From the IMG/VR virus record IMGVR_UViG_3300031227_000178, positions 1 through 36,904 of that record: DNA of 36,904 nt. The stretch is one strand, 5' to 3'. The first letter of the stretch is position 1. Each line of letters starts with the position of its first letter. The stretch comes from a virus. A program made the position numbers and the translations under genes. Positions 5,780-36,279 of this stretch are shown piece after piece. The notes beneath the pieces are model-generated. The model made no database searches, was not told where the DNA came from, and was given only the letters and a program-made list of their open reading frames with translations.

Positions 5780-6179
5780 CCAAAACACTAGGCCTATAAT
5801 TGGTTTAACCTTTGGGGCTTTCGAGATATTCCACCAAGGCCACTACAATTTACTTAAAAATGCTAAAGCTAAATGCAACCACCTTATTGTTTGCGTTTCT
5901 AGTGATAAGTATATTGAAAAAAACAAAGGGCATAGACCAGCTATAAATACAAAGCTACGCCAGCAAATAGTTAAGTCAATGAAATTTGTTGATGAGGTAG
6001 ATATCCAGGCAATATTTTTTACAAAAAAACAAGCAGTAGAAAAGTTTAAACCTGACTTTATTTTTGTAGGCGACGACTGGACACCCAAGACTTTTGGTGG
6101 CGAGGGCCTAGGCGTACCAGTAGTTTACCTACCAAGAACTAAGGACATATCTTCAACAAAATTAAGAACAGATAAATGA
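5772..6179 (+). CDS. TagD/GCT-like cytidylyltransferase
   Basis: This 135-residue protein is the normal length of a glycerol-3-phosphate cytidylyltransferase. It has the nucleotidyltransferase HxGH motif as HQGH (21-24), KPDFIFVGDDW in the middle, and ISSTKLR near the C-terminus, matching the ISTTxIR signature. It should join CTP to a phospho-alcohol to form a CDP-alcohol that LicD-type enzymes use. The exact alcohol (glycerol, choline or other) cannot be read from the sequence. It overlaps both neighbours. Confidence 0.85.
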   Translation: MTNQNTRPIIGLTFGAFEIFHQGHYNLLKNAKAKCNHLIVCVSSDKYIEKNKGHRPAINTKLRQQIVKSMKFVDEVDIQAIFFTKKQAVEKFKPDFIFVGDDWTPKTFGGEGLGVPVVYLPRTKDISSTKLRTDK

Positions 6180-7078
6180 AAAATCTAACCGCAGTATTAA
6201 TTAGTTTCTTACGCCCCGAGTACACATTCGAGTGCATAAGAACATTACATAAAGAATACAAAGACATAAAAATATTAGTAGCAGAAAACGGCCAGTACAA
6301 TAAAGAGCTACACGAATATATACATGCTAGAGGTGGTCGTTATTTTTTAATGCCGTTTGATAGCGGCGTTTGCTATGCACGAAATAGATTAGTAGAGTTA
6401 GCTGACACTGAGTATATCTTAGTTGGCGACGACGACTTCTACTACAATAAAGAAGCTAAGGTTAGAGAAATGTTAAAGTTTCTACGAGGAAACAAAGACT
6501 TTGATTTAATTGGTGGGCGTATCCGTGAACGTGGCAAGATTTTAGACTACCAGGGTTTTATAAATATATACCCCGATCACTTTGAATATAAGAAAATGAA
6601 CCCCGAGCATAATTTATACGACATACCTAGCAGGCTTGTTTACCAAAAATGCGATATTACCTTTAATTTTTTTGTAGCTAGGCGTGAAAGTATTATAGGT
6701 ATTCCATGGGACGAAAAAATCAAGGTAGCCTATGAACACTCCGATTGGTTTATTAGCATGATGAAAGCCAAACGAAGCGTGGCCTATACACCTGATGCAA
6801 TAGTAATTCATAAGCCTGACCATATAGTAATTAAAAATGAAAATGATTATAAATACTACCGCCACCGGAAGACTGACCAAGCCCGCTTTTTTGATAAACA
6901 CAAAGTAGATTACTCAATAGGCTTTAGGGGTGTGAAGTCAAATTTTAGGAAAGAGGTAAAACTGGCTAAGCATAAATATTATACAAAAAGGACAATGTGT
7001 TATGACGGTCGAAGCTATAACGCCGGCGATATTATAACTACAAAGAGGCCTACCGACGACATGGTGCCATTGATGTAG
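6176..7078 (+). CDS. GT2-family glycosyltransferase with C-terminal extension
   Basis: This 300-residue protein begins TAVLISFLRPEYTFECIRTL and has VAENGQYN, SGVCYARNRLVEL and ILVGDDDFYY, the DxD-type metal site near residue 84. HSDWFISMMKAKRSVAYTPD further on is the usual acceptor-side segment of GT2 enzymes. The last ~30 residues (CYDGRSYNAGDII) form a small extra module I cannot name. It is the last gene of the overlapping cassette; a 38-nt gap containing a new promoter follows. Confidence 0.8.
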   Translation: MKNLTAVLISFLRPEYTFECIRTLHKEYKDIKILVAENGQYNKELHEYIHARGGRYFLMPFDSGVCYARNRLVELADTEYILVGDDDFYYNKEAKVREMLKFLRGNKDFDLIGGRIRERGKILDYQGFINIYPDHFEYKKMNPEHNLYDIPSRLVYQKCDITFNFFVARRESIIGIPWDEKIKVAYEHSDWFISMMKAKRSVAYTPDAIVIHKPDHIVIKNENDYKYYRHRKTDQARFFDKHKVDYSIGFRGVKSNFRKEVKLAKHKYYTKRTMCYDGRSYNAGDIITTKRPTDDMVPLM

Positions 7079-10588: not shown

Positions 10589-12745
10589 ATGAAATGGAAT
10601 AAAATCTTTAGCATGTTTAAGAAAAAGACAGCCGGCACCGAACTAGGCGGCTTTGAACTGCTAGCCAGGTTAACGTCAAAGAATTGGAGTAAAAAGAAAA
10701 TGCTGCAACAGTACGAAAAATCTTTGTACGTATTTGCCTGCGTAAATAAAATAGCTGAAAAGTGTAGTAGCATTGATCTAGAGCTATATCAAATACTTAA
10801 TTCTAGCGGCGACAATAAAGAAATTATAAGCCACGAAGCCCTAGACCTACTTTATAAAGTTAACCCGTTTCAAACAAAAACGGAGTTTATGAAGATTACA
10901 GTCATCAACCTGCGACTTGCCGGTGATGCTTTTTGGGTTAAGATTAGGAACAACGGGGGCAAGGTAGCAGAGCTTTGGAACCTACGCCCTGACCTTATTG
11001 AAATAGTGAAAGACCCTAACGAGTATATCAAAGGCTATAAGTTCACTAAGTCTGCCGGGGAAATTGTATTTTTTGCTCCAGATGATATTGTGCATTTCAA
11101 AAGCCCTACACCGTTAGACGATTACTACGGCATCAGTCCAGTGAAAAGTGCTAGCATACGAATTGAAACAGAGGCCCACGCTTCTGAATATCAAAGGGAC
11201 TTTTTCCTAAACAACGCTAGACCAGATGCTATTGTAAAAGCTGCCGGCAACCTAACACCCAGGCAGAAAAAAGAAATGCGAGAGAACTTTGAATTACAAC
11301 ACAAAGGCAAAGGTAAAAATAGTAAGCTGGGTATATTCGAGGGCGGTTTAGACTATCAACAAATTTCTATTTCTCAACGTGAAATGGACTATATTGAAAG
11401 TATGAAGTTTACCAGGGACGATATACTGGTTGCTTTCCATACACCAAAACCTATTGTGGCCATTACTGATGACGTTAACTATGCAAACGCTAATACAGCT
11501 ATGTATATTTTCTTGTCCGAAACTATCAAGCCATTGATGGGCGATATTGTAGAAAAAATAAATGAAGAACTTATTAGCCCTGACTTTGGGGAAAATTTAT
11601 ATTTAGACTTTCCAGACCCTACACCAGAAATGAGAGAACAAACCCTAAAGGACTATGAGAACGGCTCAAAAAATCACTGGTTGCTTATAAATGAAATTAG
11701 GCAGAAAGAGGGCCTAGAGCCTATTGACGGTGGCTGGGATTTATACATGCCACTAAACAACGTGGCTTCCGGTGGCCTAAAGCAAACCAAGCGTGCCAAG
11801 ACAATGGAAGATTGGGCAATGCTTCAAAACAAAAAGACTAGAATTAAAGCTATAAAAACTTTTCGTGGTAAACGTGAATTACGCCAAAGGTTTTTTATTG
11901 CAGAACAATTTAAAAAAGAATTGACTAAAACGCTAAAGGCCTACAAGGTAGAAGCTGAGGCAGAAGCTAAAGCAAAAGCTAAGGTAGCCAAAAAACTTAA
12001 ACCGCTTATTAAAGGCGAAGATCTACGTAATAAATATTTTGCTATGGTAAATAAGTCCATAGACCAAAAGGCAGCCAAGCTAAAAGAAGATGTTATTAAA
12101 TTAGCTACTGCACAGGAAGCTGAATTTATTGCCAAGCTGGCACAGATAGATGACCTAACCAAGAGCAAAGCCCTGGGCAAAAATGCTAACGCAGAAATTA
12201 AAAACTTCTATGCTGGCCAAGAGGCTGTGTGGGCAGAGTTTATTTTCCCGTTCATTGAAGACTATACTAGATCAGCCGGGCTAGATGCTATGCTTATGGT
12301 TAACCCGGAAACAAATTTTGAAATGACTGATGCTGTCCGTAAGGTACTAAAGAAACGTGCCGCCGAGTTTGGGCTGGGTGTAAACAAAACAACCAGGGAA
12401 AAAATAACCAAAGCTATAAATACTGGATTAGCAGAGGGCGAAAGTATGGCCAAAATATCAAACAGAGTAAACGATAGCTATAAAGAATTTAGCACATATA
12501 GAGCAGACCTTATTGCTCGAACAGAAGCCACCGCAGCTAATAATGAGGGCTTCATTGAAGCATATAAACAAAGTGGCGTTGCCACACATAAAGAGTGGAT
12601 AGCAACCAAGGACGATAGAACCAGGGACGAACACTTAGCAATGAATGGGGAAATAGTTAAGGTCAATAAAAAGTTTTCAAACGGGCTTATGTACCCCAAG
12701 GAACCTAATTGCCGTTGTGTAATTGGCCCAGCTCTTGACGACTAA
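10589..12745 (+). CDS. Portal protein fused to MuF-type head morphogenesis domain
   Basis: This 718-residue protein has two parts. Residues 1-400 are an HK97-type portal: SLYVFACVNKIAEKC, LRLAGDAFWVK, DIVHFKSPTPLDDYYGISP and TPKPIVAITDDVNYANA. A Lys/Ala/Glu-rich linker around 450-470 precedes a C-terminal MuF domain (about 600-715) with LIARTEATAANNEGF, DDRTRDEHLAMNGE and PNCRCVIGP, the hallmark His and Cys pattern. Portal-MuF fusions occur in other phages; usually these are two genes. It forms the DNA entry vertex and probably carries a minor head protein into the capsid. Confidence 0.9.
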   Translation: MKWNKIFSMFKKKTAGTELGGFELLARLTSKNWSKKKMLQQYEKSLYVFACVNKIAEKCSSIDLELYQILNSSGDNKEIISHEALDLLYKVNPFQTKTEFMKITVINLRLAGDAFWVKIRNNGGKVAELWNLRPDLIEIVKDPNEYIKGYKFTKSAGEIVFFAPDDIVHFKSPTPLDDYYGISPVKSASIRIETEAHASEYQRDFFLNNARPDAIVKAAGNLTPRQKKEMRENFELQHKGKGKNSKLGIFEGGLDYQQISISQREMDYIESMKFTRDDILVAFHTPKPIVAITDDVNYANANTAMYIFLSETIKPLMGDIVEKINEELISPDFGENLYLDFPDPTPEMREQTLKDYENGSKNHWLLINEIRQKEGLEPIDGGWDLYMPLNNVASGGLKQTKRAKTMEDWAMLQNKKTRIKAIKTFRGKRELRQRFFIAEQFKKELTKTLKAYKVEAEAEAKAKAKVAKKLKPLIKGEDLRNKYFAMVNKSIDQKAAKLKEDVIKLATAQEAEFIAKLAQIDDLTKSKALGKNANAEIKNFYAGQEAVWAEFIFPFIEDYTRSAGLDAMLMVNPETNFEMTDAVRKVLKKRAAEFGLGVNKTTREKITKAINTGLAEGESMAKISNRVNDSYKEFSTYRADLIARTEATAANNEGFIEAYKQSGVATHKEWIATKDDRTRDEHLAMNGEIVKVNKKFSNGLMYPKEPNCRCVIGPALDD

Positions 12746-14996: not shown

Positions 14997-15509
14997 ATGG
15001 CAGCAACAGTAGAAATTTGCGAAAGTAATGGAGCAGGCGAAGCCATTACTCACAATATTACAAATTCAAATAAGGGTAGTGTCGACACCCCTAATTTAGT
15101 GGCAGCCGATTATCCCGTTGTGCCAGGCGAAAATAGCTTTGAAAAATGGCAGCGTATTCACGTCACGGCTATGGGTGGTTCAAGTAAAATTGATAACCTA
15201 AAAATTTGGCGTGTCACAGCCCTTGGTGGATCCGCAGTGCATAAAACTAACGCTAGAGAGAGTGCATACGACGGAGCCCAAACCTACGCCCAGCCCTCTG
15301 CTTCTGACCGTAGCGGCACTTATGACTACACAGAAGCTATGCCTACTACTGAACCTAGCGGAGCTAACCTAGGCATTGGTGGTGCTTTAGCAGGCGAGTT
15401 AACCGGTGTAGGTTATTCAGACTACTTAGTCCACCAAATACAAACTGACGGTGCCGACGTAGCAGGTGCAACTACCACAATGCACTATCAATATGACGAA
15501 ACAGCTTAA
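14997..15509 (+). CDS. Putative virion protein (170 aa)
   Basis: The protein is rich in Gly, Ala, Ser and Thr with beta-like stretches: NSFEKWQRIHVTAMGGSS, NLKIWRVTALGG, GVGYSDYLVHQIQT, MHYQYDET. The NLKIWRV pattern is seen in head-decoration or fibre-like phage proteins. Position immediately after the capsid gene suggests a capsid decoration protein. No signal peptide or membrane helix is present. Family not identified. Confidence 0.55.
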   Translation: MAATVEICESNGAGEAITHNITNSNKGSVDTPNLVAADYPVVPGENSFEKWQRIHVTAMGGSSKIDNLKIWRVTALGGSAVHKTNARESAYDGAQTYAQPSASDRSGTYDYTEAMPTTEPSGANLGIGGALAGELTGVGYSDYLVHQIQTDGADVAGATTTMHYQYDETA

Positions 15510-15916: not shown

Positions 15917-16360
15917 ATGCAAGAACCAAAATTTACTTTCGTCAATATAGTCGACGGAAAAGAAAAGCTAGAGGAAGTGAAGCTAGAAAATTGGATATGG
16001 GCCGTCACTTATAAAGACGGCAATGAACTACACCAATTTGACAATCAACGTACCTTTCATCGGTTGGCCGAAATAGACCAAAGCAAGGTCGCTGTGTGGA
16101 CACTATACCAGCCAAAAGGCAAAGGCGATGGCCATATTACTTTTGTTCTACCGCTAGACAAAGAAGTAGCCCTAATTCATAAATACCGTAATTACGTTTT
16201 TAACTCCGGGCAAAAAAATGAAAAGAAAGTCCGCATTTATATTTTTGGTTATAAGGTCAAGGGCCAGGTGCCACACTATAATTTTATAATGCCGGACAAT
16301 CGTATTGTTCAATCGTTTGGCGACCAGAACCCTAAGCTAAGTAGTGATGCAATAAAATGA
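15917..16360 (+). CDS. Hypothetical phage protein (147 aa)
   Basis: The protein has mixed alpha/beta character: FVNIVDGKEKLEEVKLENW, VAVWTLYQPKGKGDGHITF, KKVRIYIFGYKVKG. No signal peptide or transmembrane helix. Not recognised. It starts a set of genes that leads to the repeat-bearing fibre proteins and overlaps the next gene by ATGA, so a structural or fibre-assembly role is possible. Confidence 0.5.
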   Translation: MQEPKFTFVNIVDGKEKLEEVKLENWIWAVTYKDGNELHQFDNQRTFHRLAEIDQSKVAVWTLYQPKGKGDGHITFVLPLDKEVALIHKYRNYVFNSGQKNEKKVRIYIFGYKVKGQVPHYNFIMPDNRIVQSFGDQNPKLSSDAIK

Positions 16361-16840: not shown

Positions 16841-17203
16841 ATGGCATGCTATTTAAACGGAACATGTTGCGACGGCAATCAAACCGGCAAAGAAGAGCTG
16901 ACCGGTTTTACCCACAGGGCTGGTGGTCAAAATAACCGCCCCCCGTTCCTTTCAATTTGTACTTTAAAGGTAGGTATAATTCCGCAAATTTACCAGGGTG
17001 GGGTATGGATAAACATGTCGCTTGTTTATGCAAATATAGGGACTTCCCCTGCTTCCGCCTCGCCCTATTCAAGCTACCCTTGTTCTAAAAATACTACCTT
17101 TACTCTGACACCCAGGGTCGGTAGTGGCGGGGCTACGCTAGCTGTCGTTATAGAGTTTCTGACAAGACCTATGTTTATTATTGCTACTTCACAGTACAGG
17201 TAA
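16841..17203 (+). CDS. Hypothetical protein, possible N-terminal part of a frameshifted fibre gene
   Basis: The 120-residue product begins MACYLNGTCCDGNQTGKEEL and has beta-rich stretches (LKVGIIPQIYQGGVWIN, TFTLTPRVGSGG, IEFLTRPMFIIATS). The next frame, at -1, is open from 17125 and already matches the 14-residue repeat before any start codon. This gene and the next may therefore be one product joined by a frameshift, or one gene split by an indel. Confidence 0.5.
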   Translation: MACYLNGTCCDGNQTGKEELTGFTHRAGGQNNRPPFLSICTLKVGIIPQIYQGGVWINMSLVYANIGTSPASASPYSSYPCSKNTTFTLTPRVGSGGATLAVVIEFLTRPMFIIATSQYR

Positions 17204-17232
17204 ACTCTACCGGGCCAACCGTAGTAGCTATT

Positions 17233-17577
17233 TTGAAAGCCCTAGAGTATGCCGTAGTTGCCCCAACTGATATTACCAAGGCGTTGACCTATACCGTGGT
17301 CGCACCAAACGAATTAACAAAGCCTTTAGCTTACACAGTAGTTGCCCCGGCGGAAATAACTAAGCCACTCGCTTATAGCATTGTGTCGCCTGTCAGCATA
17401 GACAAGGGACTGCAATACACCGTTTCTACCCTTGCAGCTATAACAAAGGGTCTAAACTATGCCATTGTGGCTCCTGTGGCTTCCATAGACAAGGTTTTAG
17501 CCTACGAGGTACGTATTTACCCCTACTGCCCGCAAACAAGTCCTTACGTGCCAAAAAATAAAAGAATATGCAATTAA
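17233..17577 (+). CDS. 14-residue-repeat protein, short copy (fibre-like)
   Basis: About seven tandem copies of a 14-residue unit (consensus x-[IL]-[TDN]-K-x-L-x-Y-x-[VI]-x4), e.g. DITKALTYTVVAPN and EITKPLAYSIVSPV. The tail is YEVRIYPYCPQTSPYVP. The only start near is a TTG at 17233, but repeat-like sequence already appears upstream in frame (GPTVVAILKALEYAVV), so the true beginning is uncertain. It shares repeats and tail with the 933-aa protein that follows. Probably a tail or head fibre part. Confidence 0.55.
   Translation: MKALEYAVVAPTDITKALTYTVVAPNELTKPLAYTVVAPAEITKPLAYSIVSPVSIDKGLQYTVSTLAAITKGLNYAIVAPVASIDKVLAYEVRIYPYCPQTSPYVPKNKRICN
17500..17531 (+). repeat. 32-bp perfect direct repeat, copy 1
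   Basis: Identical to 20251-20282, inside coding sequence and in the same reading phase. It encodes the start of the shared AYEVRIYPYC tail. Spacing is 2751 bp, a multiple of three, so recombination would swap gene tails in frame and remove most of the 933-aa gene. Confidence 0.85.
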
Positions 17578-17583
17578 AATAAA

Positions 17584-20385
17584 ATGTCAATTTTAAACGA
17601 TAACAACAAAATAACAGGCTACGAAACAGGCGACAATACTTTTTTAAAAGAAAAGATTGCTGACGTAGCCCGTAAAGCAGAAATTGAAATAGGCGATAAA
17701 AAACAGCCCGACTTATTTTACCCACAGTTTAAAACTAAGCACTGGGATAACGAGTGTAATTTATCTTTGCGTTTGGTAGATAGTGATTACCAAGGTGGCA
17801 TTTTAAAAACTGATCAGGAAAAAATAGAGTGGGAACGTGCTGGCCGTAAAATTATATTTTATGAAAAAGATATTGCCGAAGCTGAGGACGGCGGCTTTGA
17901 AATAGAAGTAGAGCTAGCAGGAAAACCAGCCAGCAATGTGTTGGAATTTTCTATACAAACAAAAGGCTTAAATTTTCTTTATCAGGACGAGCTTACGCAA
18001 GAGGAAAAAGACAGGGGACTAACCAGGGCTGACAATATTATTGGGTCTTACGCCGTTTATCATAGTACCAAAAAAAATAATACAGTTGGCGGAAAACATT
18101 ATAGAAGCGGTAAAGCATTTCATATTTATAGACCCTATGTCGAAGATGCAAACGGAAATAAAATTTGGTGCAATCTCAACATAGACACTGAACTTGAAAT
18201 ACTAACAATAACTGTACCGCAGGAATTTTTAAACACGGCTGTTTACCCGGTTATTATTGACCCTACTTTTGGCTATACTAGCATTGGCTCTACAGCCGGT
18301 TATTTGCAAAGTACATATATTGTTGGAACAGCAGGTACTTTGAGTGCTGCCGGAATAATAAGTAAAATGACAGCTTATTTAAAAACCGGTTGGCAATCTG
18401 GTCAAGATATTCAATTAGCTATTTATAATGACGACGGCACCTACACCGGCAATAGTACAGAGGAAAAAGACGACGGAACAGAGAACGCCTGGATAGACTG
18501 GGATTTTGGCAGTCCTGTAAACCTTGCTGCCGATGATTATTTGTTAGTGGCCTGGACAAACGGGTTTAATATACAATGTGCTGCTGACAGTGGGTCTTCT
18601 GGTCAAGTATGGGACATTACCCCCGGAGCTAGTTATAATGCTTGGCCAACAATAGACGGTTTATCAGGAACTTATATTTATTCTATTTATGCCACCTATA
18701 CCCTAGCACCAACAGAGGAAGACATAACTAAGAGCCTGGGGTATGCAGTGATCACTACGCCAAGCGAAAAAACAAAGGGTCTAGTTTATACAGTAGAAGC
18801 CCCTGCCGACATAACAAAAACTTTAGGCTACGGCATATTGCTTGATTTTGATATTACTAAAACGTTGGCATACGAGGTCACATTTCAGCAACTACTAAAC
18901 AAGGGATTAGTTTATACAGTAAAGGCTCCTGTCGACGTACAAAAAAGTTTGGGCTACACCGTTATTACTCAAACCGACGTACAAAGGCTACTTACTTATC
19001 ATGTTATAAATTTCTCTGACATTACCAAAGGCCTGACCTATGCCATGAAACCTAGTATTGATATTACAAAAGGTTTAGCCTATACAGTTCAAACCGCAGA
19101 CGAAATAACAAAAAATCTGACCTACGAAATAATAACAAGCACCGATATTACTAAGGGGCTTGATTATGGAATTTCAGAATTAGAAGTAATTGACAGCTAC
19201 TCCGAAACAGACCAAGACTTAGAAATAGGCATGTATGCAGGGGGCCTAGTTGGAGTTGCCCAGTCTTTTGAAGCAACTGACATGTACGAGCTCGATAGTT
19301 CTAAAATGTACCTAAGAAAATTAGGCTCACCTACCGGCACTGTTTACGTTCATATTTATGAACACTCAGGTGTGTTTGGAACAAGCAGCGTACCTACCGG
19401 CTCACCGTTGGCCACCGCTAGCATTGCTGCCAGTATTTTAAATCCCGATAGTTTATATTTAATGAAGTTCCTTTTTACAGGGGCTAATAAAATAAAATTA
19501 GACCCTGGCTACTATGTTATAGCAGTAGAATATAACGGCGTTGATGTTAACAATAATGTAGTAGTCGGCATTGATAATAGTACGCCCACACACGGCGGAA
19601 ACGCAGCACTTACAACAGGGGCATGGTTCCCAATAGCTGGCCTTGATACGGTTTTCTTTGCCTACGGTTTGCCAATAGCTCAAACAGATGTAAATAAAAG
19701 TTTAGGCTACGCTATAAAAACAGAAACCAGCCTAGACATAGATTTGACCTACGCCGTTCTTACTGACACAGCAATAAATAAACCACTAGGCTATGCTGTT
19801 ATTACTGACTTTGATATTGATAAAACATTGACCTATGCCGTATTAACTGACCAGGTATTAAACAAAGGATTGCAATATACTTTAGCCACTTTTTCTGATA
19901 TAAACAAAACCCTGGAATATACTATTTTAACTGACACCGGAATTGATAAGGGTCTAGAATATATTATTATACAACAGCTATCTATAACAAAAGCCCTAGC
20001 CTACACTATAAAATTTGAAGAGGATATTACCAAGGTTCTAAGCTATCAAATATTTTTACAAACAGAACTAACAAAACAATTAGAGTATGCCGTAGCCTGG
20101 CAATATGATATTACCAAGGTGCTGGCTTATAGCGTTATTACTGACACTGGCATTGCTAAAAATTTGGTGTACGCCATTGTGTCTGAGTTGGACATAACTA
20201 AGCCCTTGGTTTATGTGGTAGCTTATGAAGTTGAAATTACGCTAGCCCTGGCCTACGAGGTACGTATTTACCCCTACTGCCCTAAAGATAGCCCCTACTC
20301 ACCGGCAGATAGCCCGTTCAGCCCTAAAGACGACATATACACTGGCAAGGCAAGTCTATATACCGACTTCCCTAAGAATTGCTAA
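17584..20385 (+). CDS. Large fibre-like protein with about 25 copies of a 14-residue repeat
   Basis: 933 residues in five parts. (1) 1-235 is a beta-rich head with YRPYVEDANGNKIW and YPVIIDPTFGYTSIG. (2) 236-377 is a jelly-roll-like domain (IQLAIYNDDGTYTG, LAADDYLLVAWTNG). (3) 378-532 holds about 11 repeats such as DITKTLGYGILLDF. (4) 533-698 is a second jelly-roll-like domain (GTVYVHIYEHSG, LDPGYYVIAVEYNG). (5) 699-896 holds about 14 repeats and ends in an SPYSP-type tail. The strand-like period suggests a beta-solenoid shaft carrying binding domains. Host attachment is the likely job; the repeat family is not one I know. Confidence 0.7.
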   Translation: MSILNDNNKITGYETGDNTFLKEKIADVARKAEIEIGDKKQPDLFYPQFKTKHWDNECNLSLRLVDSDYQGGILKTDQEKIEWERAGRKIIFYEKDIAEAEDGGFEIEVELAGKPASNVLEFSIQTKGLNFLYQDELTQEEKDRGLTRADNIIGSYAVYHSTKKNNTVGGKHYRSGKAFHIYRPYVEDANGNKIWCNLNIDTELEILTITVPQEFLNTAVYPVIIDPTFGYTSIGSTAGYLQSTYIVGTAGTLSAAGIISKMTAYLKTGWQSGQDIQLAIYNDDGTYTGNSTEEKDDGTENAWIDWDFGSPVNLAADDYLLVAWTNGFNIQCAADSGSSGQVWDITPGASYNAWPTIDGLSGTYIYSIYATYTLAPTEEDITKSLGYAVITTPSEKTKGLVYTVEAPADITKTLGYGILLDFDITKTLAYEVTFQQLLNKGLVYTVKAPVDVQKSLGYTVITQTDVQRLLTYHVINFSDITKGLTYAMKPSIDITKGLAYTVQTADEITKNLTYEIITSTDITKGLDYGISELEVIDSYSETDQDLEIGMYAGGLVGVAQSFEATDMYELDSSKMYLRKLGSPTGTVYVHIYEHSGVFGTSSVPTGSPLATASIAASILNPDSLYLMKFLFTGANKIKLDPGYYVIAVEYNGVDVNNNVVVGIDNSTPTHGGNAALTTGAWFPIAGLDTVFFAYGLPIAQTDVNKSLGYAIKTETSLDIDLTYAVLTDTAINKPLGYAVITDFDIDKTLTYAVLTDQVLNKGLQYTLATFSDINKTLEYTILTDTGIDKGLEYIIIQQLSITKALAYTIKFEEDITKVLSYQIFLQTELTKQLEYAVAWQYDITKVLAYSVITDTGIAKNLVYAIVSELDITKPLVYVVAYEVEITLALAYEVRIYPYCPKDSPYSPADSPFSPKDDIYTGKASLYTDFPKNC
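20251..20282 (+). repeat. 32-bp perfect direct repeat, copy 2
   Basis: Same sequence and codon phase as 17500-17531. It lies at the end of the repeat block of the 933-aa protein, just before the Ser/Pro/Tyr-rich tail. Confidence 0.85.
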
Positions 20386-20415: not shown

Positions 20416-20988
20416 ATGAAAGGCTATACAAACGAACAAAACATTGAAAATTATCTACTGCAAGATATAGACAGTAGTTTTAGCACGCAACTAAATACAT
20501 GGATTACGGCCATGGAAAAATACATTGACAATTTAACGGGCCGTAATTTTGTTGCTGATGCAGAGGGTAGCGAAACCACCAAAGTTTACGACGGCAATAA
20601 CAGTGCCAAAATGAACATTGACGATTTCTTAACTATTACTGTACTTACTATCGACGAGGCCGCAGTCACGGTTGACGACTGGTACTTATACCCAAACAAT
20701 GAAACTGCTAAATATCAAATAATTTTAAAGTCTAATTACTTTACTGCCGGACTTCAAAACATTTCTATAACTGGTCGCTTCGGCTATTCCGTAGCCGTGC
20801 CGGAAGACGTGCAATTTGCTTGCACAGTTTTAGTTGCCGGCATTTTAAATTATTCCAATAACAGCAAGGGAAAAGTACGTAGCGAAACCATAGGCAGTTA
20901 TTCAGTTAGCTACGCCACAGAGAAAGACTGGCAAGACTTTAAACGTGCCGAGGGAATACTAGCCGCTTATAAAAAATTTAGCTTTTAA
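20416..20988 (+). CDS. Head-tail connector protein (gp6-like)
   Basis: This 190-residue protein has IENYLLQDIDSSFSTQLNTWITAMEKYIDNLTGR at its start, typical of the gp6-like adaptor that docks below the portal. It continues with strand-rich middle parts (DDFLTITVLTIDEAAVTV) and ends FKRAEGILAAYKKFSF. Position before head-closure and tail genes fits. Forms a ring extending the portal channel. Confidence 0.75.
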   Translation: MKGYTNEQNIENYLLQDIDSSFSTQLNTWITAMEKYIDNLTGRNFVADAEGSETTKVYDGNNSAKMNIDDFLTITVLTIDEAAVTVDDWYLYPNNETAKYQIILKSNYFTAGLQNISITGRFGYSVAVPEDVQFACTVLVAGILNYSNNSKGKVRSETIGSYSVSYATEKDWQDFKRAEGILAAYKKFSF

Positions 20989-23742: not shown

Positions 23743-25440
23743 ATGCCACAGACTACGCACAAATTACAAGTTGTTATAGAAGCGGAAAATAGAGCAAATG
23801 CCGCTTTTAATGGTGTTCGACAAAACCTTGACACTATGAAAACCAAGCTGCAAAAAATGCAGCCTGCTTTTCAAAAAATGGCACTATTTGGTGGTGCTGC
23901 TTTTGCCGGCATAGCCGTTGGTGTAAAAGGGGCAATAAGCCAGGTAGCTATTGCCGAGGGTGCTTATAACAAATTTAATACTGTATTCGGGGAACACTCT
24001 GACGACATGTTAAATTTCGTAAATGATATTAGAAAAGAAATGCCGACTGCCACTTCTGAAATTGTACGCATGGCTGCCGACCTACAAGACTTAATGGTAC
24101 CGCTTGGCTTATCACGTGAACTGGCCGCAGATATGTCTAAGGGCTTCCTGGACGTTTCAAACAAAATCGCAGCCTTTAACGACGTTGACCCTACACAGGT
24201 GCTAGAAGCTATAAAATCGGGCTTGTCAGGCTCTAGCGAGCCACTACGGCGTTATGGTGTAAATGCACTGGAAACTTCACTAGAAGCCAGGGCATTGAAA
24301 GAGGGGCTACTAGAAACTGGCCAGGCCTTTAAAGATTTAGACCCCGAAGTAAAAACGCAAATAAGAGCCCAGGCATTACTAGCACAAATAATTGACAATT
24401 CCTCTGATGCAATAGAGGGCTTTGAGGAAAATAACGACTCTTTTATTCGTAGGCAGCAAGAGCTAAACGCTACCATACTGGAAACCAAAGAACGAATAGG
24501 TACGTTGTTGCTTCCTATGTTTGACCAGTTGTTAAAAAAATTACTACCAATAATAGAAAAAATAGCAGCTTGGATTGAAAAACACCCCGAGCTTACTAAA
24601 AATATAATTCTTGTCGCCGCCGCACTAACCGGACTAATAGCTGGCATAGGTTTATTAGGTATGGTACTTCCGGCGATCATAACAGGCGTGTCTTTATTGG
24701 CAGGCCCTTTTGGCATTGTTGCCGCCGCCATAGTCGCCCTGGGCATTATATTAAGTAAGGCACAAATAGACTGGGGCAATTTCATGCAAAGCATCGAGGA
24801 AAAAACAGGGCTTATATCTATGCTAACTGAACTGTGGGAAGATTTAAACGACCTATGGGTAAGTCAGGTATTACCAGCCTTAAAAGATTTGTGGGATAGC
24901 ATGACACCACTATTGCCGGTGCTAGAATTTTTAGCTAAAGCTATTGGTGTTGTTTTGCTGGGGGCTATATATGCAGCTATAACAGCTATAAGAATAATAG
25001 CTAGCTTACTTTCACTGGTAATTACTGCCGGTGCTGCCCTTTCCTCTGCCGTCACTGACTTTTGGGTTAGTTCATTTCAAAAGTTTGGCGACATTGTTAA
25101 CTGGGTAGTTGAAAAAATACAAGCCTTAATTGATGCTATAAAAAGACTAAACGTTGTACAGGGTGCTAGAAACGCTATCAGTAGCGTAGCAGGCACCGTA
25201 GGGGGCTGGTTTGGACGTGCTGCCGGTGGTGCAGTCCAGGCAGGCAGAACAATGCTTGTTGGCGAACATGGCCCTGAATTATTTACACCAGCTAGTCATG
25301 GTCGAGTAATGGCGGGGCTAGGTGGCGGGGCTAGTTTAAATATTACTATTACCGGTAATAACTTTGTTGGCGAAGAGGGAATAGCTGAACAAATAGGCAA
25401 CGACATTATGAAAGTAGTAAAATCAAATATAAGATTATGA
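23743..25440 (+). CDS. Tape measure protein
   Basis: This 565-residue protein has helical coiled stretches at the start (ENRANAAFNGVRQNLDTM), then ITSEIVRMAADLQDLMVPLG-like TMP segments. Two hydrophobic parts follow around 285-335 (IILVAAALTGLIAGIGLLGM) and 400-430. The C-terminus has the common MLVGEHGPELFTPASHG motif. It sets tail length; 565 residues predict a tail of roughly 80-90 nm by the usual 0.15 nm per residue. It overlaps the next gene by ATGA. Confidence 0.9.
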   Translation: MPQTTHKLQVVIEAENRANAAFNGVRQNLDTMKTKLQKMQPAFQKMALFGGAAFAGIAVGVKGAISQVAIAEGAYNKFNTVFGEHSDDMLNFVNDIRKEMPTATSEIVRMAADLQDLMVPLGLSRELAADMSKGFLDVSNKIAAFNDVDPTQVLEAIKSGLSGSSEPLRRYGVNALETSLEARALKEGLLETGQAFKDLDPEVKTQIRAQALLAQIIDNSSDAIEGFEENNDSFIRRQQELNATILETKERIGTLLLPMFDQLLKKLLPIIEKIAAWIEKHPELTKNIILVAAALTGLIAGIGLLGMVLPAIITGVSLLAGPFGIVAAAIVALGIILSKAQIDWGNFMQSIEEKTGLISMLTELWEDLNDLWVSQVLPALKDLWDSMTPLLPVLEFLAKAIGVVLLGAIYAAITAIRIIASLLSLVITAGAALSSAVTDFWVSSFQKFGDIVNWVVEKIQALIDAIKRLNVVQGARNAISSVAGTVGGWFGRAAGGAVQAGRTMLVGEHGPELFTPASHGRVMAGLGGGASLNITITGNNFVGEEGIAEQIGNDIMKVVKSNIRL

Positions 25441-26954
25441 GTGTAGTTTTAACAATAGGTGGTGCTGATAAAACCAGCATTATAAAAAGCAGAAGCCTTA
25501 AAAAAAAGGACGAAGCAAACTACCTCGCAGACGACCTACGGTTCCAGATTATATACCATGCAGGCCAAACATTTAGGCCGGAGTCAAACAGCGAGGTTAT
25601 TTTAACTATTGACGGAACAAGAGAATTTGGCGGCAAAATTTATTCTGTTAGTAAAGAAGCTACCGGCAATAGTTCGGTTTTATATACAGTGAAGTGTAGG
25701 GATTATTCCTATGATCTAAACAGGCAATTAGTCCAGGCACAATACGAAGACATGACTGTTGGGGCAATTATTGCAGATCTACTTACTAATTTTACCGACG
25801 GAAGTTTCACAGGCACTAATGTTGTATGTATAATACCGGTTAGCAAAATTGTTTTTAAACGTGTGCCTCTAGTAGAAGCAATACAAAGATTATCTGATTT
25901 AACCAATTTTGTTTGGTACGTTGACTATAATAAGGACGTACATTTCTTTGAAAAAAATACAGAATTAGCACCTTTTAATTTAACCGATACTAGCGATAAC
26001 TTTATTTTCGACACCCTAGAAATTGAAAATGATTTATCACAAATAAGAAACCGGGTTTATATTACCGGTGGCGAAATTGAGGGTGACGACGAAAGGCTAG
26101 AGTACCTAGCTGGCGACGGGGAACGTTTGCAATTTCCACTGTCTAATAAATTTGCAAACCTACCGACTGTTATAGTTGATAGCGTAGCCCAAGACGTTGG
26201 CGTTGATTTTTTAAGCAAAGAGGAAGACTACGACTGCTTCTGGAATTTTCAAGCACAGTCATTACGTTTTAAAACAACCACCGTACCGTCAGACCAAAGC
26301 GGGGCTAATAATATAACCGTAGAAGCAATACCACTTTTTACCCTGGAAGTTAGAATATCTGAGGAAACTTCTATTGCCCAATATGGTTTGTTCGAGTTTG
26401 CCAAGATAGACAAAAAGCTAGTTAGCCGTGATCAAGCCATTGATTTTGCCCAGGCCCAATTAGAAGCATACGAGGACGGCGTTATAGAGGGCGAATTTAC
26501 AACCTACACTCCTGGGCTAAGGTCAGGTCAAATAATCAATATAAATTCTACACTACTTGATGTTAACGAAAATTTTATAATACAGTCAGCTACCTACACA
26601 ATGGTTAGCCCTACCCGCTATATGTGGAAAGTAAAATTAGCCACCCTGCGGACAATAGGCATTGTTGACTTTTTAATAGCAGCACTGCGAGAGGGCGATA
26701 GACTTATACAAGAAGACACCGACACCCAACTGCATCACGTAGTTTACCCTAGGGACAAAGTGAACGTAGGCGATGTAGTAAATATAAACACTGACGATTA
26801 TTTGCAGGAAGACGAAGTAGAGGTAGGCGATGCATTAACAACTACCTTTCCGTCAGGCGATATTGTTTATGTTTTAGGCCCTAAGATACCTGACGTTGGT
26901 GTTGACTTACGTCGTGTTTTCCGTACCGGCAGAGGCAAGCTATCAAACTTTTAA
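25437..26954 (+). CDS. Tail hub / baseplate protein
   Basis: This 505-residue protein has beta-rich domains: RSLKKKDEANYLADDLRFQI, EVILTIDGTREFGGKIYSV, YTVKCRDYSYDLNRQLV, IQRLSDLTNFVWYVDY, then ALREGDRLIQEDTD. The arrangement resembles tail hub (gp27/late-control D-like) proteins: domain 1, inserted domain and a C-terminal ring. It lies just after the tape measure as usual. It closes the tail tip and holds fibres. Confidence 0.7.
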   Translation: MSVVLTIGGADKTSIIKSRSLKKKDEANYLADDLRFQIIYHAGQTFRPESNSEVILTIDGTREFGGKIYSVSKEATGNSSVLYTVKCRDYSYDLNRQLVQAQYEDMTVGAIIADLLTNFTDGSFTGTNVVCIIPVSKIVFKRVPLVEAIQRLSDLTNFVWYVDYNKDVHFFEKNTELAPFNLTDTSDNFIFDTLEIENDLSQIRNRVYITGGEIEGDDERLEYLAGDGERLQFPLSNKFANLPTVIVDSVAQDVGVDFLSKEEDYDCFWNFQAQSLRFKTTTVPSDQSGANNITVEAIPLFTLEVRISEETSIAQYGLFEFAKIDKKLVSRDQAIDFAQAQLEAYEDGVIEGEFTTYTPGLRSGQIININSTLLDVNENFIIQSATYTMVSPTRYMWKVKLATLRTIGIVDFLIAALREGDRLIQEDTDTQLHHVVYPRDKVNVGDVVNINTDDYLQEDEVEVGDALTTTFPSGDIVYVLGPKIPDVGVDLRRVFRTGRGKLSNF

Positions 26955-28597: not shown

Positions 28598-29824
28598 ATG
28601 AAAAATAGAAACCACGGCTGCGTGCCGGAACTAGAAAGCGTACAAGACCCTAGAAACTACGATGCAGAGGCTATAATGGGCTCTGTGCTAGCTGAACAGC
28701 AAATAGACTATTCTAAGGTCAGGGGCGGCGTTGTATTCGATATAGAGGTAATTATGGCTTATATACAGCGTGTTGGTGTAAAGAAGTTTAGATCACGTAC
28801 TTGGTCTATTGCCTACGCCCAGGAAATTATGGCCACCGAGAATGGCCGTTTTATAACCCCGAGTAAAAATCAGATAGGCATGGACAACTGCGTTTGGCAG
28901 GCTAAGGCTTTTTATGGCCAGGTGCTAAACTTTATTGAAACCGGCAAGTGGGTTGATCTTTCATCTATTTTTAAATTTTGGCAGTATGCCTTGGCTTATG
29001 GTACCTACATAGTACGGGCCTGCATCAGTGCAGTTAAGGACGGGTTTGCTTTAGAGGAAGACGTGCCTAGCTATAGATATTTTAAAACAGACGACGGTAG
29101 ACAACACCCGGATATGGACAGTGCTTTTGCTCGAAACAGGAAGCATGAAAACGAAACTGTTTATAAAAAAGCTAAAGAGTACCAGGCTAAAGGCTACGCT
29201 AAAATTACTAGCAGGAACCTAGAACGTATTGCACAGATTAGTATTTTAAATTTTGGTTGTTTAGGTGGCTACTATGTAAACGGCATGTCCTTTAAAAATG
29301 TTTTAAAAAATATATTCCGGTTAACTAATAGCCCTAAGAGTGGTGGCCACTGTAATTACTTTGGTGGCAAAATTACTCTAGAACAGGGCAGGTTAACTAT
29401 ATGGTCTAAAGATAGCTACGACGGTTATAATGATCGGGACAAAACAAACGGCTGGCTAGGTCACCAAGAGGAAACCTTGAAAGGTGGCATGTACTTTAAT
29501 TGGTACACAATTATTGATGCTAAAAATATTGGCGTAGTGGACGAGTTTAAAAAAGAAGTCGCACTGAAACAGTTGCTATTTATGAATGGTCGAAAAACAA
29601 AAGACGTTGGCAACACTGCGGTTATGTTTATTCGAGTAGAAAAAAACAAAGGTGCTAAGGGTCAGGCCTATCTTATTATAAGAGATAAGACCGGCAAAAT
29701 TATAGGCTTTAAATATTTGCATGGTAGACCGTGTGATCTATTCGGCTATTTCGTAGAGAACGAATACCTAGTACCTATACCCGAGAGCCTTTGGGAAAAA
29801 ATTAAATACGCTGAAATAAAATAA
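28598..29824 (+). CDS. Papain-like (C1-type) cysteine peptidase
   Basis: This 408-residue protein has NQIGMDNCVWQAKAFYG with Cys98 in the position of papain's catalytic Cys (Q...GxCW). SGGHCNYFGGKI has His251, and WSKDSYDGYN follows where the catalytic Asn/Trp (NSWG) belongs. The order Cys-His-Asn/Trp is right. The remaining parts are unfamiliar. Next to a holin, it may serve as lysis or entry enzyme that cuts envelope proteins or peptidoglycan peptides. No signal peptide. Confidence 0.6.
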   Translation: MKNRNHGCVPELESVQDPRNYDAEAIMGSVLAEQQIDYSKVRGGVVFDIEVIMAYIQRVGVKKFRSRTWSIAYAQEIMATENGRFITPSKNQIGMDNCVWQAKAFYGQVLNFIETGKWVDLSSIFKFWQYALAYGTYIVRACISAVKDGFALEEDVPSYRYFKTDDGRQHPDMDSAFARNRKHENETVYKKAKEYQAKGYAKITSRNLERIAQISILNFGCLGGYYVNGMSFKNVLKNIFRLTNSPKSGGHCNYFGGKITLEQGRLTIWSKDSYDGYNDRDKTNGWLGHQEETLKGGMYFNWYTIIDAKNIGVVDEFKKEVALKQLLFMNGRKTKDVGNTAVMFIRVEKNKGAKGQAYLIIRDKTGKIIGFKYLHGRPCDLFGYFVENEYLVPIPESLWEKIKYAEIK

Positions 29825-32579: not shown

Positions 32580-33737
32580 ATGGAAAAGAAAATAAAAGTA
32601 TTGAGTTTATTTGACGGAATAAGTTGCGGGCAGGTAGCCCTAAATAGTTTGGGTTATGACGTAGAATATTACGCCAGCGAAATAGATAAACATGCTATTG
32701 AAATTACAAATAGAAATTACCCAGGCACCAAGCAACTTGGCGACGTTAAAAATATTAGCTACAAAGAACCATACCTATTTTATGGTAGTGGGCATAAACC
32801 AGTTTTTGAAGTTAAAGATATTGACTTGCTTATAGGCGGTAGCCCATGCCAGGGCTTTAGCTTTGCTGGTAAGCAGTTAAACTTTAATGACCCACGATCA
32901 GCATTATTCTTTGAGTTTGTACGGGTATTAAAAGAAGTAAAACCAAAATACTTTTTATTGGAAAATGTAAAAATGAAGCAAGAGTTTCAAGATATAATAA
33001 GCGAACACCTGGGCGTTAAACCAATAATTCTAAACAGCAATATTGTTTCGGCTCAAAATAGAAAACGGCTTTATTGGACTAACATACCAGTTATAGATTT
33101 GCCAAAAGACAGGGGGATAATGTTAAAAGATATTATTCACGAAAACCTTGACAACATGGGAATGAAAGATTTAGAAGACTATGTTGTGCCTTTTGACAAA
33201 ACACTAAAAATTTTAGATAAAGAAGTGCAGAGGGGAAAGGTTGGTTATTTCAGAAAAGATAGCCAGGCAAATAGGGTTTATTATATTCATGACAAAGCTA
33301 TTACATTAACCGGTGAGGCTGGCGGTGGTGCTGCCAAAATGGGACAATATTTGTTAGGGGTAGTCAATAAGAAAAGAGGAAATAATAAAGGTGGGCTAAG
33401 AAATAATGGTAAGAAGTCGCCAACTATATCTGCTAATTCATGGGAGCAAAATAACCATTTATTATTTGGCTGTTTAACTCCCGACAGGGTTGACCAAAGA
33501 CAAAGAGGTCAAAGATTTTCAGAGGGAAATAAATTTTATACTTTAACCGGGCAAGATAAGCATGGCATATTAGTTGAGGGCTATATTAGAAAGCTAACAC
33601 CTATTGAATGTGAACGACTACAAACATTGCCGGACAATTATACTGAGGGAATATCAAACCCCCAAAGATATAAAGCACTTGGCAATGGCTGGACAGTCGA
33701 AGTAATAAAACACATTTTAAAATATATAAAAAATTAA
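32580..33737 (+). CDS. dcm: C5-cytosine DNA methyltransferase
   Basis: This 385-residue protein has motif I (FDGISCG, 11-17), motif IV with catalytic Cys90 (GGSPCQGFS), motif VI (LLENVKM), the QNRKRLYW motif VIII, and motifs IX-X (ERLQTLPDNYT, KALGNGW). Length and motif order are complete, so it should be active. The target is unknown. The gene contains no CTAG in 1158 bp, unlike most of the genome, suggesting acquisition. It probably protects phage DNA from restriction together with Mom. Confidence 0.9.
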   Translation: MEKKIKVLSLFDGISCGQVALNSLGYDVEYYASEIDKHAIEITNRNYPGTKQLGDVKNISYKEPYLFYGSGHKPVFEVKDIDLLIGGSPCQGFSFAGKQLNFNDPRSALFFEFVRVLKEVKPKYFLLENVKMKQEFQDIISEHLGVKPIILNSNIVSAQNRKRLYWTNIPVIDLPKDRGIMLKDIIHENLDNMGMKDLEDYVVPFDKTLKILDKEVQRGKVGYFRKDSQANRVYYIHDKAITLTGEAGGGAAKMGQYLLGVVNKKRGNNKGGLRNNGKKSPTISANSWEQNNHLLFGCLTPDRVDQRQRGQRFSEGNKFYTLTGQDKHGILVEGYIRKLTPIECERLQTLPDNYTEGISNPQRYKALGNGWTVEVIKHILKYIKN

Positions 33738-35403: not shown

Positions 35404-36279
35404 ATGCAAGACAACACAAAAAACACAATGATTGGTTCCGCACCAAAGAAAAAAGACGGGGAAAAACCAGTCGCTAAAAAAAAAGAGAAACCAGGCAAGG
35501 TCAAAGAAGAGAAGCCAGCAAAAGAAGTTAAAGAGAAAAAGCAGGCTATACAAATAGTCGAGAAACACCTAACTAGCAATGATGCTGAGGACGCTTTCAA
35601 GAAAATGACCAAGCCACAAATAGAGCTTATAAAGTCAACGCTAGCCAAAGGTGCTACCGATGATGAATTGAAGCTCTTTTTAAATGTTTGCGTTGGTGCT
35701 AGACTCAATCCGTTTTTACGCCAGGTTCATTTTGTAAAGCGTTGGGACAGCAAACAGGGCAAGGAAGTTGGGCAAATACAGGTAGGCATTGACGGCTTCC
35801 GGGCTATTGCTGAGGGTGGCGGTCAATATGCTGGTAGTGATGATCCAATAATTGAAATGGACGAGAACACTAAGCTGCCAATAAAAGCTACCGTCACTGT
35901 TTACAAACTAATGGAAAACGGGGAACGCTACCCTTTCACAGCGACAGCCCACTGGGTTGAATATTGCCCAGCAGATAAAATGGCTTTTATGTGGAAAAAA
36001 ATGCCTAAGGGGCAAATTGGTAAGTGTGCCGAAGCACTGGCATTACGCAAGGGCTTCCCTAAATTGCTAAGCGGTTTATATGCACCCGAGGAATTAGAAA
36101 AGGTTGACGATAAGCCAGCCGAAACTATGCTTGATAAAGCTACCAATGCCATAGGCAAATTACCTGCTGAAAAACTACCCGAGCTAAAAGAAAAAATAGA
36201 GGGTTCTAAAAAGTATAGCCAGGACGACAAAGACAAATTACTTAAACAAATTGACGAAAGGTTAAATGCTAACACCTAG
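35404..36279 (+). CDS. RecT/Bet single-strand annealing protein
   Basis: This 291-residue protein has a Lys/Glu-rich N-terminus (1-50), then FKKMTKPQIELIKSTLAKG, CVGARLNPFLRQVHFVKRWD, VGIDGFRAIAEGGG, ATAHWVEYCPADKMAF and GKCAEALALRKGFPKLLSG. All are typical of the Bet/RecT family that anneals complementary strands. It sits directly upstream of its exonuclease partner. It should anneal recessed ends made by that exonuclease. Confidence 0.9.
   Translation: MQDNTKNTMIGSAPKKKDGEKPVAKKKEKPGKVKEEKPAKEVKEKKQAIQIVEKHLTSNDAEDAFKKMTKPQIELIKSTLAKGATDDELKLFLNVCVGARLNPFLRQVHFVKRWDSKQGKEVGQIQVGIDGFRAIAEGGGQYAGSDDPIIEMDENTKLPIKATVTVYKLMENGERYPFTATAHWVEYCPADKMAFMWKKMPKGQIGKCAEALALRKGFPKLLSGLYAPEELEKVDDKPAETMLDKATNAIGKLPAEKLPELKEKIEGSKKYSQDDKDKLLKQIDERLNANT

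Follow-up and report, generated by a model that had tools for sequence, protein, structure and literature searches.

A tandem repeat of 14 residues with the pattern K-x-L-x-Y-x-V, present in a viral DNA stretch of 36,904 nucleotides (IMG/VR record IMGVR_UViG_3300031227_000178, hereafter the window), is, judging from sequence comparison, an uncatalogued module common to many uncultivated phages. We consider the 933-aa protein that holds most of its copies to be, with somewhat better than even confidence, an adhesion fibre of the virion whose gene belongs to the head/connector module. The features of the locus are collected in Table 1.

Table 1. Features of the repeat locus (positions in the window; res, residues of the 933-aa protein)
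Feature	Position	Strand	Basis
170-aa conserved protein, first cassette gene, directly 3' of the major capsid protein	14997..15509	+	relatives
147-aa companion, second cassette gene	15917..16360	+	relatives upstream of repeat gene
Probable 5' part of disrupted gene (N-terminal module, short repeat protein)	16841..17203	+	frame analysis
Probable 3' part of disrupted gene (last jelly-roll-like strand, 7 repeats, PY tail)	17120..17577	+	open frame, alignment
14-residue repeat, 7 copies	17233..17517	+	repeat count
Modular fibre-like protein, 933 aa	17584..20385	+	ORF
Conserved N-terminal domain, family A1, res 1-235	17584..18288	+	relatives; AlphaFold2
Jelly-roll-like domain 1, res 236-377	18289..18714	+	beta-rich AlphaFold2 model
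Repeat block 1, 11 copies, res 378-532	18715..19179	+	repeat count
Jelly-roll-like domain 2, res 533-699	19180..19680	+	phmmer matches in relatives
Repeat block 2, 14 copies, res 700-895	19681..20268	+	repeat count
PY-rich C-terminal tail (YPYCPKDSPYSPADSPFSPK...), res 896-933	20269..20385	+	similar tails in relatives
Head-tail adaptor, directly downstream of repeat gene	20416..20988	+	phrog_442, 2.9e-17

The first-pass annotation had counted about 7 copies in a short gene and about 25 in the 933-aa protein, and recounting gave 7 and 25 (11 + 14), 32 in total, with the period of 14 residues confirmed apart from a few spacings of 15. The motif K.L.Y.[VILM] is found 23 times in the 933-aa protein and forms 20 adjacent pairs 14 or 15 residues apart, as against a mean of 0.17 motifs and zero pairs at the right spacing in 2,000 shuffles of the same protein. 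Amino acid identity at lags of 14, 28 and 42 residues is 0.39, 0.43 and 0.39, compared with about 0.06 elsewhere. The DNA of the copies has diverged, as had been noted earlier (mean nucleotide identity 0.49, and 0.42 for third bases at identical residues), while the residue pattern is intact, so that selection maintains the pattern at the protein level.

Two jelly-roll-like domains had been described as interspersed with the repeat blocks; both are present, but only the second lies between the blocks, the first preceding block 1 directly after the N-terminal domain. The latter, which we call the A1 domain, was modelled by AlphaFold2 with a pLDDT of about 90 across most of its length, and the first jelly-roll, which follows it in many relatives, with moderate confidence. 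The second jelly-roll matched L116 by phmmer at 4.6e-26, in which it is the sole N-terminal module ahead of the 14-mers, and L028 and L148 at 2e-12. Neither jelly-roll-like domain had a family match. In BFVD, Foldseek matched the A1 model to a 713-aa viral protein (A0A5Q2W7D1, 27% identity, E 1.7e-41), and it also returned a chain of 201 aa from the capsid asymmetric unit of cyanophage A4 with a probability of 1.00 and a TM score of 0.47 by target, at an E value of only 0.01.

The short gene of the first-pass annotation is probably not an independent gene. This ORF, 17233-17577, begins with a TTG within the first repeat, and upstream of this codon the frame stays open to about 17120, where 'YVYYCYFTVQV' stands against 'SIYATYTLA' of the jelly-roll. 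The product of the extended frame aligns, at an E value of about 1e-15, to residues 365-476 of the 933-aa protein. Given the open frame and the likeness to the last jelly-roll strand, 16841-17577 probably represents a single gene whose reading frame has been disrupted. The product of its 5' part had no relatives among the loci compared. A programmed frameshift was considered and set aside, as inspection by eye gave no convincing slippery site, and mutation or assembly error is therefore preferred; these two are indistinguishable because the sole second copy of the locus (L004/L054) is an identical contig.

When viral contigs were scanned for stretches of three copies in tandem, at least 118 such stretches were obtained. 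Filtering and removal of duplicates left at least 63-66 distinct arrays, which together contain at least 1,318 copies. Among the matches listed, a protein carries up to 86 copies, and the copies follow the consensus I-[TEQ]-K-[SG]-L-x-Y-x-[VI]. Over the at least 1,318 copies, Lys is conserved at 93%, Leu at 92%, Tyr at 99% and Val/Ile at 95%, values that are somewhat overstated because the scan pattern itself fixed K/R, hydrophobic, Y and hydrophobic. A PY-rich tail (at least two PY in the last 60 residues) ends 30 of the 59 complete relatives among the matches listed. Array length changes by whole repeats, close relatives differing by gaps of 14, 28, 42, 57 and 58 residues. The N-terminal parts vary: the A1 domain (ahead of the 14-mers in L148), a jelly-roll (the second one of the window in L116), LamG (Laminin_G_3, three times), CBM_4_9, MAM, kelch (L009) or, in some proteins, a short leader of the type LLxExGDxxLLE. 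The LamG, CBM, MAM and kelch modules are domains of sugar-binding or propeller type, and their presence on repeat proteins speaks for the adhesion fibre. Several proteins (L050, L058, L067, L106, L107, L126, L144 and others) consist of repeats only behind a common leader, YxLLxExGDxxLLxExxDxILLE, which is possibly a virion-anchoring peptide.

That the repeat belongs to no recognised family, as previously stated, was upheld by profile and sequence searches, in which no single stretch was significant in Pfam, NCBIfam, PHROGs or PDB sequences. The Pfam and NCBIfam matches to CwsA, PulA_N1, TRAUB, YTV and DUF1717 were rejected since none has a stretch significant alone, those to PulA_N1 and YTV arising from the sum of many weak stretches, and the matches to sortase (phmmer, E 0.49) and adenylosuccinate lyase (hmmsearch, E 1.4) were attributed to chance. 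Among 50,697 named phage records, no match was obtained for the repeat proteins L144 and L131 or for the 170-aa protein and its companion of about 140 aa, and the 170-aa protein had none in Pfam and PHROGs either. The A1 domain had one match in these records, MW202647.1 (Podoviridae sp. ctMEh928, Manatee Spring), whose protein shares the N-terminal domain at 32% identity, but stops after the jelly-roll without repeats. A literature search found no 14-residue phage fibre repeat. Within the reach of the tools used, we found no earlier description of the repeat, of its cassette or of its spread in uncultivated phages; the phage fibre as a kind of object is already known, and it is the shaft repeat that is new.

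The repeat gene sits in the head/connector module, within a cassette whose order is 170-aa protein, companion of about 140 aa, repeat protein and head-tail adaptor. Among the matches listed, the 170-aa protein (aligned relatives 61-77% identical) lies upstream in 28 of the 33 loci with enough flank and the companion in 30 of the same 33, and an adaptor of the phrog_442 type follows in 32 of 44 loci, mostly within less than 200 bp. A gene site between capsid and adaptor genes implies late structural expression, and coding together with head/connector genes makes it probable that the product is mounted on the capsid or neck. One could instead regard the protein as an ordinary tail fibre or tailspike, a receptor-binding protein of the tail tip whose gene came by chance to lie in the head module, and this we hold to be unlikely although it keeps an appreciable chance. 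Upstream neighbour genes match PHROG 'tail fiber' families at some loci, lectin-like modules fit a receptor-binding protein, and no second large fibre gene was found in the window, the part past the tape measure included, an absence that also counts in favour of the adhesion fibre. However, in most loci the cassette adjoins head-tail adaptors and not tail-tip genes, and in the window the hub gene (25437-26954) lies about 5 kb beyond it.

The shaft appears to be swappable, since the same N-terminal domain is found on quite different short repeats. About 30 A1-domain relatives were found in IMG/VR and 4 in MAGs, in which the domain is joined to repeats of period 22 (L005), 18 (L015), 21 (L017), 20 (L026, L031) or 24 (L024, L035), to Ser/Thr-rich tracts (L019, L021, L030, L034), or to C-terminal halves made of unrelated 14-residue repeats (SRDAEITG in L012, SERGLYIQG in L023); the K-x-L-x-Y-x-V 14-mer in turn is also found behind other N-termini.

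The regular strand pattern had led the first-pass annotation to suggest a beta-solenoid or stacked-strand shaft. Of this the strand is supported, both by covariation and by modelling, with solenoid and trimer as candidate arrangements. Charge and hydropathy covary at i/i+2 within the repeat (positions -3/-1, z = -10; +3/+5, z = -9), as in an extended strand on which the side chains concerned would point to one face, and an AlphaFold2 model of the repeat predicts a strand of about 11 residues and a turn of about 3 per copy, at a pLDDT of 54 and a pTM of 0.38. A second AlphaFold2 job, run without the repeat alignment, left the repeats disordered; this, the low pLDDT and the E value of the A4 match count against the adhesion-fibre reading; the A4 likeness itself speaks for it. 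A turn of about 3 residues is too short to connect two parallel 11-residue strands lying side by side in the same sheet. The chain would therefore have to run either as antiparallel hairpins, or as a coil or trimer with successive strands on different faces. Lag analysis for a superperiod of two, three or four repeats (hairpin, triangular coil) gave no clear signal overall, and inter-repeat covariation gave scattered, uninterpretable peaks. A regular loop-length pattern was seen only in L093, where lengths run 15-15-14-14 over long stretches (a 5544 pattern). Several indels of 57-58 residues, equal to four repeats, separate L057 from L114 and L106 from L107; together with the L093 loops they may point to a four-repeat superunit in some arrays.

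A further alternative, in which the repeats serve as a flexible and mostly disordered spacer between binding domains and the K-L-Y-V pattern comes from weak or transient strands, is in our estimate rather improbable. Both AlphaFold2 models have low pLDDT there, and L030, L034 and L021 have Ser/Thr-rich low-complexity tails in the same place behind the same N-terminal domain, but the near-invariant Tyr, Lys and Leu, the near-fixed 14/15 spacing and the i/i+2 covariation would be unexpected of a disordered linker.

Known shaft folds offer partial likenesses. The triple beta-spiral of the adenovirus fibre and reovirus sigma1 forms a trimeric shaft from tandem beta repeats of about 15 residues, the two short strands of each being linked by a conserved Gly/Pro turn. 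No such turn recurs in every copy of the present repeat, as in the profile of at least 1,318 copies Pro reaches at most 30% (position -5) and Gly at most 24% (position +1), and near-invariant Lys and Tyr are found instead. Beta-solenoids, such as left-handed beta-helix enzymes and curli CsgA, are also built of strand plus turn, and the best Foldseek matches of the repeat model in PDB were mostly beta-helices, at E values of 0.16 or above, which are not significant. In a solenoid core the conserved Lys, presumed to face inwards, would be unusual.

Relatives carry modules that bind surfaces or act on walls, namely LamG, CBM, kelch and Amidase_2. In three of them an amidase lies C-terminal to the repeats: L120 (Amidase_2, 1.2e-18, residues about 713-855), L168 and L169, and the last two, located in Patescibacteria chromosomes, point to a wall hydrolase fused to the fibre cassette. 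Such fusions, and exposed conserved Lys and Tyr that could bind polymers, would also fit repeats that are themselves binding elements for wall or glycan, like choline-binding repeats, and that deliver a hydrolase or lectin module; yet most arrays have no hydrolase, and the alternation puts the most conserved residues (I, K, L, Y and V) on the same face, as would be expected in a core, making this quite improbable.

For the adhesion fibre that we favour, each repeat would form one beta-strand, with I-x-K-x-L-x-Y-x-V on one face, and a short turn, and the stacked strands, most likely trimeric, would yield a stiff shaft of variable length. The jelly-roll modules, like LamG, CBM, kelch or amidase in relatives, would contact the host surface, and a fibre so placed on capsid or neck would raise adsorption. 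We infer the virion location, oligomeric state and ligand of the 933-aa protein.

Fibres on the capsid or the neck have precedents, and for several of them a role in adsorption is described (PMC7602432, PMC12796354, PMC10172136, PMC10966104), and capsid or head fibres and adhesion decoration proteins include phi29 gp8.5, T4 Hoc, SPP1 gp12, phicrAss001 gp21/gp29 and those of phage 7-7-1; accessory virion proteins are there thought to carry adhesion modules or fibres, with a host-adhesion role for several (PMC7602432, PMC10172136, PMC12796354). Known capsid-fibre shafts are coiled-coil, Ig-like or collagen-like; in the portions of this literature at hand no K-x-L-x-Y-x-V 14-mer is described, and no sequence match was found here. 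The Anabaena phage A-1(L) proteins gp80-82 form fibres at the head-tail junction with a distal carbohydrate-binding module, which showed no host binding (PMC10966104), and this counts against the adhesion-fibre reading. In A-1(L), each fibre is a string of separate trimeric beads, whereas the window protein would be a single chain of 14-mers.

More tentatively, and at somewhat less than an even chance, the repeats may constitute a new class of fibre shaft, in which stacked 14-residue strands form an undescribed trimeric or solenoid beta-fold, in a large group of uncultivated phages that includes phages of Patescibacteria. Length would then be set by gain and loss of whole repeats. Fourteen residues might even be the basic unit of such a fold, a notion suggested by the same period in the unrelated consensus of L012 and L023 on the same N-terminal domain. 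The repeat may represent a novel type of beta-fibre whose length is given by repeat number and whose ends are freely swapped in evolution. Little is known of how phages attach to Patescibacteria and other hosts not yet in culture. The repeat, recognisable and with a fixed gene neighbourhood, could serve as a metagenome marker for such fibres, and it offers a compact, expressible target for structure determination.

As to hosts, the trio of 170-aa protein, companion and repeat protein was found in 2 of 380 genomes of the GTDB set, drawn from the phylum of a Patescibacteria MAG, and in none of 384 Omnitrophota genomes. The two contigs are of chromosome size (1.10 and 0.82 Mb), portal and capsid genes accompany the trio in one genome, and the repeat proteins end in an amidase domain. 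Patescibacteria would be hosts for part of the family, and not necessarily for the window phage; the window's capsid and terminase relatives are remote and spread over many hosts. A non-virion protein in a late operon, such as a lysogen surface protein or superinfection factor, would suit the copies in Patescibacteria prophages, but is very improbable, because in many different phages the gene lies between those for the capsid and the adaptor.

Elsewhere, the window encodes a GT2 glycosyltransferase (6176-7078), a fusion of portal protein and Mu gpF-like domain (10589-12745; PF04860 + PF04233), a C-5 cytosine methylase (32580-33737) and a RecT recombinase (35404-36279). After the tail genes, 28598-29824 encodes a 408-aa protein without family match that, by eye, could be a peptidase or lysin.
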